Shown here: in pieces, positions 42,834-48,172 of the stretch
Position numbering within the stretch: the stretch's first letter is position 1
Layout: each line of letters begins with the position of its first letter
Origin: Bacteroidota bacterium
Lineage (GTDB): Bacteria; Bacteroidota; Ignavibacteria; Tepidaquicellales; Tepidaquicellaceae
DNA length: 64,000 nt
Direction: 5' to 3'
NCBI GenBank assembly: GCA_018266835.1
Contig: JAFDZP010000002.1
Location: 1,525,302 to 1,589,301, forward strand
Translations under genes and position numbers: made by a program
The notes under the pieces: generated by a model
What the model was told of the DNA's origin: nothing
Seen by the model: the letters and a program-made list of their open reading frames with translations, nothing else
The model's database searches: none

Positions 42834-44021
42834 TTACTGTCTTAAGGAATATCTTATTCTTATCCTCGGACGTTTGGAAACGTCGGGATTATCCGAATTA
42901 TAAAATACAAAATTATCCAGATTAGCTATTTCAGAAGGGCATCTCATTGAAAGTCCGTAGTTAGGGCTTACGTTTGAGTTCCATCGTTGTACTATCTGAT
43001 TTATTCTTCCTGTATATGTTATTGAATCCAATCGAGTAAGAACAAACGATTCATTATTCGTTGCCTTAGTTGAGCTGTCTGTTACCATATCAACTTTAAT
43101 CTGATTGCTGGTTCCTGATGTAATGTATGACATTCCTGTGTTAAGAGTAACCTGCAGGTATGCTTCGTTAATGATTGCATTAGTTGGGAGATTCGGGAAA
43201 CTGAACTTCAGAATATTCCTGAAAGCAATTCCGTTCTGAACCATGAAGTACTGTGATGCCGGTAATACACTTTCCGGAGCAGTACTCAAAGAGACAGAAC
43301 TTGGATATACAAAATCAATTGTATCGGTAGAGGTAGTTGTCTGAACAACAACGGTTATCACCGGTCTTAATGATACGTCAGTATTTTCCGAGTAGAATCC
43401 TTTTATAGTTGTTGATGCAGTTGTCGGTACGAATGCCAGACCGTAATTTTTAGTTGCATAGCTTGAATCTGCGGCATAGTAAAGCCAGTCCTTCATCGTC
43501 TGGTTATCCAGTGTAATGTAGATAGCAGATGTATCTGTCGGATTGCCAGAGTAGCTTCCAATTGAAGTTGTTCCGATATCTGAAGATGAAACCGAATCGT
43601 TTGTGATTGAAAGTAAATTCAATGCTCTGTTCACTTTGTAAATATTGAAAGCAACTGTACCTGTTGTATCTTTGAATGCATATTTAGAATATCTTAATCT
43701 CATCTTTGCAGAAAGCACCGTTGCGCCTGCATAGTTGCTGTTTACACCTGCAAACTGTATGAGAGTTTTAGATGTATAAAGATTTCCTCCTGAAGCATAA
43801 TTTCCGATAAGCATATTTCCTGAGCCGTTATCATTGGTATAATAGCGGAAATTTGTATTAGTGATGAGTGTAGTATCCAGAATTATTGAACCTGCTGTAT
43901 CGTTTGGATTTATAAAGTTAAGTCCAAGGTCGTTCGGATTATTTTCGCATCCGGCCAGAAACAAAAACATCAGTAAGGGTAAGGTAGTAGCTGTGTATAT
44001 TATCTTTTTTAACAATGTCAT
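42834..44021 (-). CDS. Outer-membrane or surface lipoprotein, DNRLRE/DUF4270-like
   Basis: The 395-residue protein has a lipoprotein signal with lipobox LAGC (Cys25). The body contains two DNRLRE-like beta-sandwich stretches (SAKMRLRYSKYAFKDTTGT, and NEAYLQVTLNTGMSY) and an N-terminus similar to DUF4270 lipoproteins (NPNDLGLNFINPNDTAGS). Such proteins sit on the cell surface of Bacteroidota. The gene begins nine bases after gmhB's stop and precedes the outer-membrane barrel gene, suggesting these two work together. Confidence 0.72.
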   Translation of the reverse strand: MTLLKKIIYTATTLPLLMFLFLAGCENNPNDLGLNFINPNDTAGSIILDTTLITNTNFRYYTNDNGSGNMLIGNYASGGNLYTSKTLIQFAGVNSNYAGATVLSAKMRLRYSKYAFKDTTGTVAFNIYKVNRALNLLSITNDSVSSSDIGTTSIGSYSGNPTDTSAIYITLDNQTMKDWLYYAADSSYATKNYGLAFVPTTASTTIKGFYSENTDVSLRPVITVVVQTTTSTDTIDFVYPSSVSLSTAPESVLPASQYFMVQNGIAFRNILKFSFPNLPTNAIINEAYLQVTLNTGMSYITSGTSNQIKVDMVTDSSTKATNNESFVLTRLDSITYTGRINQIVQRWNSNVSPNYGLSMRCPSEIANLDNFVFYNSDNPDVSKRPRIRIRYSLRQ

Positions 44022-44030
44022 TCAGAGCAA

Positions 44031-44600
44031 TTAGTTAGATAAATTTTTAATGTGATTTGCTGCATCAAGTAAATCTTTGGCAATGAAGTCGATTTGCAGA
44101 TTTTCATCGAGGCATTTTTGTAAATGCTCCGCTCCATAGCCCGTTAGAACAAGTATTTTTTTTAAGCCTGCGTTTTGCGCAGTCTTCATATCTGTGTAGG
44201 TATCGCCAATAAAAAAAGAACTATTCAAATCTATTGAATGTTCTTTCCGCGCCTTGAGGAGCATCCCTATGCGGGGCTTTCTCAAATCGCTTTCAATCTT
44301 GTATTTCTCTATGGTGCCTTCAGTGTGGAAAGGCGAATAATAAATATCATCAATCAGTTTTGTTTTTTTGTTTGTAATGCCGAGCAATTCTTCGTGAATT
44401 AATTTTAGATCTTCTTCTGTAAAAAATCCCCTGGCTACTCCTGATTGATTTGTAATTATTATATTTAAAAAGCCGAGCTCTTTTAAGATCTCTAGCGCTT
44501 CTGTTGTGTATGAATATACTTTTAAATCTTCAACTCTTTTAAGGTAATCTACTTCTTCGTTTATCGTACCGTCTCTATCGAGAAAAACTGCCTTGTTCAT
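44031..44600 (-). CDS. HAD-IIIA phosphatase, GmhB-like, zinc loop lost
   Basis: The 189-residue protein aligns with D-glycero-D-manno-heptose 1,7-bisphosphate 7-phosphatase, which acts in LPS core heptose synthesis. HAD motifs are intact: FLDRDGTINEE (Asp8, Asp10), IITNQSGVARG, RKPRIGML and IGDTYTDM. The E. coli zinc loop C-P-H-H...C-D-C-R-K-P aligns without gaps to SPFHTEGTIEKY and ESDLRKP, where all four ligands are replaced: Ser89, Phe91, Ser104, Leu106. The loop length is kept. It may still be a heptose or histidinol phosphatase without zinc; no other heptose genes are in the window. Confidence 0.82.
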   Translation of the reverse strand: MNKAVFLDRDGTINEEVDYLKRVEDLKVYSYTTEALEILKELGFLNIIITNQSGVARGFFTEEDLKLIHEELLGITNKKTKLIDDIYYSPFHTEGTIEKYKIESDLRKPRIGMLLKARKEHSIDLNSSFFIGDTYTDMKTAQNAGLKKILVLTGYGAEHLQKCLDENLQIDFIAKDLLDAANHIKNLSN

Positions 44601-44644
44601 ATTTTCAGTATTATACTATGAAAAGTTAAATACGTTCCTTATTC

Positions 44645-44714
44645 AGTGTCAAGTTTCAAATTACGAGTTACAAGTGAAATAGTATTTGAAATTTGACACT
44701 TGTAACTTGAAACT
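44645..44714. repeat. Imperfect inverted repeat between glgA and the gmhB-like gene
   Basis: AGTGTCAAGTTTCAAATTAC-type and ATTTGAAATTTGACACT-type arms pair, as do GTTTCAAATTAC and GTAACTTGAAAC. These words (TTTCAAATTACGAGTTAC) recur at 28572, so it is a dispersed intergenic element, possibly also a terminator for glgA. Confidence 0.55.
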
Positions 44715-44718
44715 GTTA

Positions 44719-46185
44719 TTAGACCAGCGCTTTATACAACGCTGTATATTTCTTTGCAGAAACTTTCCATGAGAAATCCAGAGCCATGCCGTTCCTTAAA
44801 ATCTTATTCCATTTATCTTTATCTTCGTAAATCTTCAGAGCAGTTTTTATAATTTCTAAAAACTCTTTACTGCTGTATTTGTTGAATAAAAATCCGTTAC
44901 CGCCGGGTTTTTTGTAATCAACAATTGTATCTGCAAGTCCGCCGGTATTTCTTACAATCGGAACTGTACCATATCTTAAGCTGTACATCTGGTTCAGTCC
45001 GCAAGGCTCATACTTTGAAGGCATCAGGAACATATCAGCACCTGCTTCAATTTTATGAGCAAGCACTTCATCAAAACCGATTACTACTGCAAGCTTATCT
45101 TTGTATTTTTTCTCAACTGATTTTAAGAACTTCTGATACTTTTCATCACCTTGTCCGAGAATAATCATGTGGACTTTTTCTTTCATCAGAGCAGGAAGAA
45201 TTTCTTCAATTAAATCGAAACCTTTCTGGTCAACTAATCTTGATATAACTCCGATTAACGGAGTCTCTTCATCGTACTCAATTTTGAACTGTGAAAGTAG
45301 CTCGCGCTTGTTTTCCCACTTCAAAGGAATTTCCTGTGAGGTATATCTGTATTCAATTTGTTTATCAACTTCGGGATTCCAAACGGAGTAATCTATTCCG
45401 TTTAAAATACCTGATAAGTCTTTTTTTCTTTTATCTAAAATATCTTCAAATCCGCATGAATATTCTTTATCTGTTCTTATTTCCTCTGCATATTTTTCAC
45501 TTACTGTTGTTATTTTATCTGCATAAGCCAGAGCTGCCTTCATAAAGCTGAACTTACCGTGATGGTTAGCAGCCTCAAAAACTTCGGGCGGAAGGCCGGT
45601 TTTATCGAATGAAGCCTTCGGGAAATTTCCCTGATAAGCCAGATTGTGTATTGTGAAAACTGTCTTAATGTCTCTTATGTACGGATGGTCTTTATAAACT
45701 GTTTTGATAAAAGCAGGGATAAGTCCTGTCTGCCAGTCGTTACAGTGTATTACATCGGGTTTCCACTGGAGAATTTCGAGAATTTCCAGAACGGCTTTGC
45801 AGAAGAACAAATAACGTTCATCGTTATTTGTAAAATCCTGCTTTGTTTTTATGTTCTGGTATATGCCTTTATTCTTGAAAAAATCGAGGTTCTCAAGAAG
45901 ATATATCTGAGCTTTTGTGTTTTTACCGTGGATAAAGGACGATTTTATGCTGAACTTCGATTCAGTATTGTTCATCTTCATGGTCAAATCTTTCAATCTC
46001 TTGATCTCATGAATCTGCAGTCTTCTTTCATCCAGCTGTCCGTACTTAGGGCTAACAATTCTTACTTCGTTTCCTAAGGAATTAAGCGCTTGTGGTAAGG
46101 AATTTGAAACATCAGCGAGACCTCCCGTTTTAGAGTACGGAAAAACTTCACTGGTCACAAAAAGTACATTATAGCCTTTTGCCAT
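44719..46185 (-). CDS. glgA: Glycogen synthase (ADP-glucose type)
   Basis: The 488-residue GT5 enzyme elongates alpha-1,4-glucan from ADP-glucose. KTGGLADVSNSLPQAL (Lys19, glucose-donor binding), VIHCNDWQTGLIPAF, TIHNLAYQGNFP, VISRLVDQKGFDLI and the C-terminal KYEPCGLNQMYSLRYGTVPI are all present; length is normal. First gene of the eight-gene leftward run. No glgB or glgC is adjacent. Confidence 0.95.
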   Translation of the reverse strand: MAKGYNVLFVTSEVFPYSKTGGLADVSNSLPQALNSLGNEVRIVSPKYGQLDERRLQIHEIKRLKDLTMKMNNTESKFSIKSSFIHGKNTKAQIYLLENLDFFKNKGIYQNIKTKQDFTNNDERYLFFCKAVLEILEILQWKPDVIHCNDWQTGLIPAFIKTVYKDHPYIRDIKTVFTIHNLAYQGNFPKASFDKTGLPPEVFEAANHHGKFSFMKAALAYADKITTVSEKYAEEIRTDKEYSCGFEDILDKRKKDLSGILNGIDYSVWNPEVDKQIEYRYTSQEIPLKWENKRELLSQFKIEYDEETPLIGVISRLVDQKGFDLIEEILPALMKEKVHMIILGQGDEKYQKFLKSVEKKYKDKLAVVIGFDEVLAHKIEAGADMFLMPSKYEPCGLNQMYSLRYGTVPIVRNTGGLADTIVDYKKPGGNGFLFNKYSSKEFLEIIKTALKIYEDKDKWNKILRNGMALDFSWKVSAKKYTALYKALV

Positions 46186-46420: not shown

Positions 46421-48172
46421 ATGAAACAAAGTATAACAACAAAAATATTAATTGTAATACCGGTATTTTTTCTTTTATTTATTTCAAATTCCTATGCGCA
46501 ATGGAGCGCAGATCCAAATGTAAATCTGCCGGTTTGCGTACAAACCGGAGAACAAGTTTTACCCAAAATTGCGGCGCTGCCCGATGGCGGATGTTATATC
46601 TCATGGTTTGATAGCAGAAGCGGAAGCTATGCTGTCTATGTTCAAAGATATAATGCTGCCGGTGTAGCGCAATTTGCAGCTAACGGTTTGCTTGTAAGTA
46701 ATAACCCGCAGAGCACATCGCTGGTAGATTACGATATGATTGCCGATGACAGCAGCAACTGTATCGTAGCTTTTACCGATACAAGAGCGGGTGGACAAAT
46801 AATTCCTTACATCTATAAAATTTCTCCGGCAGGAACGATGTTATGGGGGGCAAATGGAATTTCTCTTAACAGCCAGACAACTGTATATCAGGCAAATCCT
46901 AAATTAGCAAAGTGTACAGATAACAGTATCTGGGTAACATGGATTTATACATCAACACCCAGAGTTGCAAAGTATCAGAGAATTTCTCCCGGAGGTGTAA
47001 AACAATTTGCCGCTGACGGACTCTCAATTTCAGGAACAGGAAGTGAAACTATAGATTTTCCTGCAGCTATAGGCTCAGATAACGGAAGCGTTATTATGAT
47101 GTTCATAGGATATACAGGAAGTTTTATTTCTCCTTCAAATTATAAAATTTATACACAGAAGTTTTCTTCAACAGGAACTTCAGTCTGGCATCCTACCTAT
47201 GATACAGTTTATGCATTAGGTGCAGGTTCGGGATTCAATCCTCCTTTTATTTACTCAGATGGAAACAACGGAGCACTGTATAGCTGGAATGATGCAAGAA
47301 GCGGAGGCGGAGCAACTTCATATGTACAAAGATTCAACTCAGCAGGTACAAGACTTTTTCCATTAAACGGAAGCGCAGGCAACACTACACCAGGAATGGT
47401 AAGAAATACTCAGCAGGCATGTTTTAATACTACAACAGGGGAAACGTTTTTATTCTGGAAGGAAGCAAACAGCGGACAGACACAATTTTCATTGGTAGGG
47501 CAAAGATTTAATGCGGCAGGGGACAGACAATGGACTGATGCAGGGCTTACAATAATTCCTATGGGACCCGGTTCTTTTTCAACATTAACAACTCAGGCAG
47601 TTGATACCAATGCAGTCCTGTACATCAATGATGCAGTATTCGGCGGAACTGATAACACCATTAAAGTGGCTAAGTTTAACAGAAACGGCACAATAGCTTG
47701 GAACGGCGGCGTACTTAAAACAATTAGTCCAACAACAGGCGCAAAATCCAGAATAGATGCAAGAATAACTGTAAATAAAATGAGTATAGTTGTATGGTCA
47801 GATTCAAGAAACGGCGCACCTGATATCTATGCACAGAATGTGAACAACAACGGAACACTAGGCGGACCGTCAGGCGTTAACCAGATTTCTTCCGAAATTC
47901 CGAACGCATTCGGATTAAAACAAAATTATCCTAATCCGTTCAACCCAACAACCAATATTGTTTACAGTTTAAAAACAAATTCAGTAGTGATGCTGAAGGT
48001 TTTCAATATGCTCGGTAAAGAAGTTGCTGCAATAGGTTTAGGTAATCAAAATGCCGGCAGCTACTCTTATACACTTGATGCAGGGAAATTAAATTTATCA
48101 AGCGGAATTTATTATTACACAATACAGGCAGGTGAGTTTAAGGATACAAAGAAAATGATGTTAGTGAAGTAA
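46421..48172 (+). CDS. Secreted T9SS cargo protein, propeller-like
   Basis: The 583-residue protein has a signal peptide (ILIVIPVFFLLFISNSYA, then QWS), repeats of the type WFDSRSGSYAVYVQRYNAAG, WNDARSGGGATSYVQRFN, and VWSDSRNGAPDIYAQ spaced about 60-100 residues apart, suggesting a multi-bladed beta-propeller, and a C-terminal T9SS type A domain (NYPNPFNPTTNIVYSLKTNS ... KKMMLVK). Start is at the ATG just before the signal peptide. No enzyme motif is seen. Confidence 0.86.
   Translation: MKQSITTKILIVIPVFFLLFISNSYAQWSADPNVNLPVCVQTGEQVLPKIAALPDGGCYISWFDSRSGSYAVYVQRYNAAGVAQFAANGLLVSNNPQSTSLVDYDMIADDSSNCIVAFTDTRAGGQIIPYIYKISPAGTMLWGANGISLNSQTTVYQANPKLAKCTDNSIWVTWIYTSTPRVAKYQRISPGGVKQFAADGLSISGTGSETIDFPAAIGSDNGSVIMMFIGYTGSFISPSNYKIYTQKFSSTGTSVWHPTYDTVYALGAGSGFNPPFIYSDGNNGALYSWNDARSGGGATSYVQRFNSAGTRLFPLNGSAGNTTPGMVRNTQQACFNTTTGETFLFWKEANSGQTQFSLVGQRFNAAGDRQWTDAGLTIIPMGPGSFSTLTTQAVDTNAVLYINDAVFGGTDNTIKVAKFNRNGTIAWNGGVLKTISPTTGAKSRIDARITVNKMSIVVWSDSRNGAPDIYAQNVNNNGTLGGPSGVNQISSEIPNAFGLKQNYPNPFNPTTNIVYSLKTNSVVMLKVFNMLGKEVAAIGLGNQNAGSYSYTLDAGKLNLSSGIYYYTIQAGEFKDTKKMMLVK

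Follow-up and report, generated by a model that had tools for sequence, protein, structure and literature searches.

Within the window, the 64,000-nucleotide stretch of a Bacteroidota bacterium genome (class Ignavibacteria) that we analysed, the minus strand carries a complete open reading frame of 189 amino acids, from ATG to stop, at positions 44031..44600. Its product is a HAD phosphatase resembling GmhB and the N-terminal domain of HisB, in which all four zinc-ligand positions are substituted. The upstream neighbour on the same strand is glgA (44719..46185), encoding a GT5 starch synthase, and the pair is kept in many families of the Bacteroidota as well as in the Calditrichota. Downstream lies a gene for a putative lipoprotein (42834..44021, minus strand) that belongs to no Pfam family at an E-value of 0.001; this conserved neighbour follows glgA and gmhB in most of the Bacteroidota stretches looked at. 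The gap between glgA and gmhB (44601–44718) contains short, partly inverted repeat copies and, as RNA, folds better than 200 of 200 shuffled sequences (z = –3.4). A scan for promoters and terminators around gmhB returned nothing above chance. Adjoining glgA on its other side, positions 46421–48172 encode, in divergent orientation, a protein with a C-terminal Por_Secre_tail domain (type IX secretion sorting).

The succession of gmhB after glgA is found in the order to which this genome belongs and in a number of further families of the class. In f4, f6, f8, f9, f13, f16, f17, f20 and f24 the syntenic relatives include zinc-bearing ones, and the same arrangement occurs in f10, f19 and f21. Three Calditrichota loci (L042, L043 and L046) hold the pair with the full Cys/His/Cys/Cys ligand set (CHCC). 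Our sample of the order comprised 44 genomes, 29 from the query's own family (f1) and 15 from the sister family (f2). The zinc-less copy is anchored to glgA in 29/29 f1 and 13/15 f2 genomes, the two exceptions (L116 and L141) being stretches at contig starts, and a recent horizontal origin of the gene was rejected on this ground. Since the locus is conserved in zinc-bearing relatives, the zinc-less genes would most simply be their vertical orthologues.

Family placement and the former zinc loop

The closest relative of solved structure is E. coli GmhB (phmmer, 3l8e/2gmw, E = 1.2e-30). With 111.9 bits for TIGR01656 (curated NCBIfam cut-off 84.15) and 91.4 bits for TIGR01662 (curated cut-off 44.6), the 44031–44600 protein falls into the HAD-IIIA histidinol-phosphatase/GmhB subfamily by score. 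It does not reach the GmhB equivalog cut-offs (146.9 against 178 for NF006506; 133.8 against 149.6 for TIGR00213). All HAD motifs are kept, namely Asp8, Asp10, Thr50-Asn51-Gln52, Arg107-Lys108-Pro109 and Asp133/Asp137, and we take D8, D10, T50-N51-Q52, K108 and D133/D137 to be the catalytic Asp-x-Asp, Thr/Ser, Lys and Asp motifs that mark HAD-IIIA enzymes. The catalytic Asp8-Arg-Asp10 is encoded at 44571..44579 (minus strand), and both aspartates are present in 83/83 of the zinc-less homologues that cover the site, one fragment not covering it. AlphaFold2 modelled the protein with a mean pLDDT of 97.4 (97–98 in the loop blocks), and the top Foldseek matches of this model were again E. coli GmhB, with a TM-score of 0.89 and an rmsd of 1.7–1.8. 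A CHCC relative from the Calditrichota (L042), modelled without zinc, was predicted with equal confidence (mean pLDDT 97.1), so the AlphaFold2 model cannot tell if the loop needs a metal.

The zinc ligands of E. coli GmhB are Cys92, His94, Cys107 and Cys109. The phmmer alignment with 3l8e is gapless from query residue 4 past the loop, with a single gap at about residue 144, and in the loop stretch it pairs YYSPFHTEGTIEKYKIESDLRKP with 23 residues. Numbering by script places YYSPF from residue 87 and ESDLRKP from residue 103. Ser89, Phe91, Ser104 and Leu106 thereby stand at the Cys, His, Cys and Cys positions of E. coli GmhB, and the canonical Cys-x-His ... Cys-x-Cys structural zinc loop reads Ser/Phe/Ser/Leu. 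The former zinc loop covers residues 89–109 (SPFHTEGTIEKYKIESDLRKP; 44274..44336, minus strand, gapless to E. coli GmhB), and the four substituted codons lie, on the same strand, at 44334..44336 (Ser89), 44328..44330 (Phe91), 44289..44291 (Ser104) and 44283..44285 (Leu106). Alignment and numbering thus bear out the initial annotation, which had described a gapless loop with every ligand replaced and with loop length, Arg-Lys-Pro and Asp8/Asp10 retained.

This substitution is common to the sampled order. A GmhB orthologue without the zinc ligand set, its catalytic residues kept, was found in 44/44 genomes; 38 of these proteins have no zinc-ligand residue at any of the four positions and six have one. 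The orthologue from a genome of the same genus, 78% identical to the query, reads S-Y-S-L. Ser occupies position 89 in 42/44 order members and an aromatic residue, Tyr or Phe, position 91 in 44/44; position 104 is Ser in 19, His in 21, Cys in 2 and Asn in 2, and position 106 varies in f1 and is Ser in 15/15 of f2. Elsewhere in the loop, Gly95 and a Tyr or Phe at 100 occur in 44/44 orthologues, and every zinc-less sequence of the order has the same loop length of 18 from residue 89 to Arg107. With positions 89 and 91 re-fixed and 106 released, the zinc-less loop of the order looks re-modelled rather than decayed.

Purifying selection acts on the zinc-less gmhB. In eight of nine pairs dN/dS lies between 0.076 and 0.175, with a value of 0.13 for the query and its same-genus neighbour; in the ninth pair dS is saturated and pN/pS is 0.34. 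The ratios, together with the presence of the trait in all 44 sampled genomes, rule out a pseudogene, chance or a sequencing error. With the HAD motifs intact, the earlier statement that ligand loss does not reflect decay of the gene therefore holds. Aligning the homologues of the group also brought out a point that had been missed, namely that ligand loss is common to the sampled order and has recurred in other lineages.

Zinc-free loop or shifted ligands

Across the 44 zinc-less orthologues, the Cys, His, Asp or Glu positions conserved in at least 90% are Asp8, Asp10, Asp84, His92, Asp133, Asp137 and Cys163, and among these only His92 lies inside the loop. No replacement set of ligands can be seen among these positions, and the best reading of the sequences is a loop without zinc that other contacts keep in shape, as was initially suggested. 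The 44031–44600 protein likely has a zinc-free loop, and the structural zinc of GmhB looks dispensable in this order.

The rival reading that fares best is continued binding of zinc or another metal by the loop through shifted ligands, with His92 joined in some members by residues 103–106. His92 is present in 42/44 order members and His104 in 15/15 of f2 and 6/29 of f1, there sometimes together with Asp106; these residues could bind a metal, which would count against a zinc-free loop. The loops of f10, f19 and f21, which read C-P-Y/F-H and keep both later cysteines, also suggest that the His ligand can be moved by one residue. However, the query has Ser104 and Leu106 and shows no third conserved ligand in the loop beyond His92, and His92 itself is not a new feature because 54 of 74 CHCC proteins have it too. 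We consider metal binding through shifted ligands unlikely.

If the loop is indeed zinc-free, an ancestor in the lineage of the order would have dropped the structural zinc, and packing and hydrogen bonds would now hold the loop in its place. Candidate contacts are the invariant aromatic residue at 91, Gly95, the mostly aliphatic position 97, the aromatic position 100, and the residues Ser89 and His92, the latter almost without exception in the order.

Pathway context and substrate

The 44031–44600 gene is the one GmhB homologue in its genome at E ≤ 1, and a zinc-bearing paralogue elsewhere in this genome can be dismissed at that threshold. The same genome encodes the other proteins of an ADP-heptose pathway for the cell envelope: GmhA (237 bits) and HldD (394 bits) score over their cut-offs, as do HldA and HldC, whose genes lie side by side. 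There are 13 matches to GT9, the heptosyltransferase family. Taken together, the subfamily, the catalytic motifs, the retained Arg-Lys-Pro and the gene content suggest that the product, whose loop would be free of zinc, is probably the D-glycero-beta-D-manno-heptose-1,7-bisphosphate 7-phosphatase of the ADP-L-glycero-beta-D-manno-heptose pathway. The enzyme would be expected to follow the usual HAD aspartyl-phosphate chemistry, removing the C7 phosphate in a Mg-dependent manner with a preference for the beta anomer. Two points may be held against a heptose phosphatase, namely its scores, which fall short of the curated cut-offs for the GmhB equivalog, and its adjacency to glgA, as a heptose role offers no explanation for why the gene stays beside that of a glycogen synthase.

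Both points can also be read in favour of a new substrate that came with the loss of zinc and is perhaps linked to glycogen or starch, the gene being behind glgA in many families and in the Calditrichota. Yet CHCC orthologues adjoin glgA too, so that zinc loss and gene neighbourhood are not linked. Moreover, Arg-Lys-Pro follows the loop in 84/84 zinc-less sequences, and the protein is the sole GmhB homologue of a genome that has the rest of the ADP-heptose pathway. We regard such a change of substrate as improbable, and the altered anomer or substrate preference raised by the initial annotation finds no support, the sole GmhB sitting by pathway content in the ADP-heptose (beta) route.

Although the protein exceeds the cut-off of TIGR01656, the histidinol-phosphate phosphatase domain, and shares its subfamily with HisB-N, we dropped a role as histidinol-phosphate phosphatase. 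Histidinol phosphate is a very unlikely substrate, as neither IGPD nor HisD turned up in any of 44 genomes, the query's included, of which 42 belong to the order and two to other parts of the class; 13/14 controls were positive. Histidine synthesis seems to be missing across this 44-genome group.

A second GmhB is encoded in 12 f1 genomes, away from the glgA locus and with CHCC in 12/12. In 11 of the 12 a gene for a SIS isomerase (TIGR00441 match) adjoins it. At the one second-GmhB locus that was annotated (L183), the cluster further comprises an epimerase, an HddA-like kinase, an HddC/MurU-like nucleotidyltransferase and a transaldolase; the kinase reaches 185 bits, below the cut-off of 600, so the cluster is only HddA-like. 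In the twelfth genome (G020), the CHCC GmhB reads as fused in frame behind a putative sugar nucleotidyltransferase (L144:194-1600), and a transaldolase-like gene comes after the fusion. That the second enzyme keeps all of its ligands, in an HddA-like setting at the annotated locus, likewise lends no support to an altered substrate for the zinc-less one. The simplest reading of these genomes would be a division of labour, with the ADP-heptose (beta) pathway relying on the zinc-less enzyme and a separate heptose cluster on the zinc-bearing one.

Recurrence of ligand loss and relation to known enzymes

The homologue set of 258 loci was collapsed to 236 distinct sequences. These were picked by similarity to the query, and the fractions are therefore not population rates. 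The set drew on 30 loci and 60 further ones, with weaker rows left out, and on genome contig matches, of which the best 80 of 268 were all used. A survey of the phylum gave a match in 308/392 genomes and, among the matches listed, contributed 28 further loci (some of them repeats) and 60 further stretches. L165, L166 and L170, possibly bifunctional HisB by the length of their open frames, are kept in the count of 236. CHCC is present in 116 of the 236 homologues, three cysteines without the His in 10 and two cysteines in 26; the remaining 84 retain a single Cys or none. Outside the Bacteroidota, the sample shows CHCC in 13/13 Bacillota and 5/5 Pseudomonadota sequences, and not in those from Elusimicrobiota (1) and Verrucomicrobiota (2). 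Position 91 is aromatic in 58/70 long-loop losses and Asp or Glu in 6/7 short-loop losses, counts that are only descriptive as the relatives are not independent. Forms of the loop include C-Y-S-C in f10 and C-E-S-R among the short loops.

We inferred a mixture-model tree from 97 hand-chosen rows of the 236, with the loop columns removed. On this tree the lost state needs 13 changes, four of them forced by well-supported branches; with so short an alignment and half of the forks open, this number is approximate. One origin of all losses is rejected, the tree with all lost rows in one clade being worse by 238 in lnL (p-AU = 2e-43). The families f1 and f2 form one side of a weakly supported branch (SH-aLRT 29), so that a single loss in the order would be the simplest reading. 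A constrained clade uniting f1 and f2 with f34 and f35 (S-Y-H-D and C-F-S-W types) is not rejected (p = 0.199), and the similar motif of f34 may thus be non-independent. The long-branched CHCC row L068 was nested within the clade of the order by a first FastTree, placed next to f1 by a second and grouped with the Calditrichota in the mixture-model tree.

In f10, f19 and f21, we observed C-P-Y-H with both later cysteines at L239, L242, L246, L250, L253, L255 and L256, which suggests that in these families a one-residue shift of the His ligand may precede the loss of zinc. More broadly, we hold it to be evenly balanced whether the structural zinc of GmhB is dispensable and has been discarded repeatedly in the Bacteroidota and their neighbours, with replacements that differ by lineage. 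Most long-loop losses would have filled position 91 with an aromatic plug, short-loop losses would carry an acidic residue there, in some cases together with an Arg next to Arg-Lys-Pro, and f10 and f19 would have given up the third ligand but retained the first and the last Cys. In several of these lineages the loss would have taken place with the gene still at its ancestral position behind glgA.

Comparing the query with known systems, E. coli GmhB (2gmw, 3l8e) shares its fold, the gapless loop, the HAD motifs, Arg-Lys-Pro and the pathway partners, whereas the two differ in the four ligand positions and the query scores below the curated equivalog models. The N-terminal domain of E. coli HisB (2fpr) belongs to the same HAD-IIIA subfamily but is an enzyme of the histidine pathway, whose IGPD and HisD are absent from the query's genome. 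The Mesorhizobium loti protein mll2559 (2o2x) also departs from CHCC, its loop reading C-A-Y-H and H-P-M-R-K-P in the phmmer alignment, that is Cys/Tyr/His/Met; an incomplete ligand set has thus been in the PDB since 2006. Unlike the query, 2o2x retains Cys at the first ligand position and carries His at the third. We assume it to be the M. loti GmhB with a beta preference. A published account reports that an M. loti GmhB prefers the beta anomer and the B. thetaiotaomicron enzyme the alpha anomer (PMC8204981). Ribosomal protein S4, which is reported to exist in zinc and non-zinc forms (PMC3087516), offers a general precedent for a zinc site present in some orthologues and absent from others. 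S4 is an unrelated protein, and its case centres on horizontal transfer, whereas the locus described here is anchored to glgA. A literature search found no paper on a zinc-less GmhB, and we make no claim that none is in print.

The zinc-less GmhB is a variant of a known enzyme, more notable as a recurrent pattern than as a single gene. If our reading is correct, these proteins, many of them encoded at the same locus, would represent one enzyme in a natural series of full, partial and absent zinc sites, and the role of a structural zinc and its possible replacements would be open to direct test. The Cys-x-His/Cys-x-Cys loop would then be unsafe as a marker of GmhB when heptose pathways are annotated.
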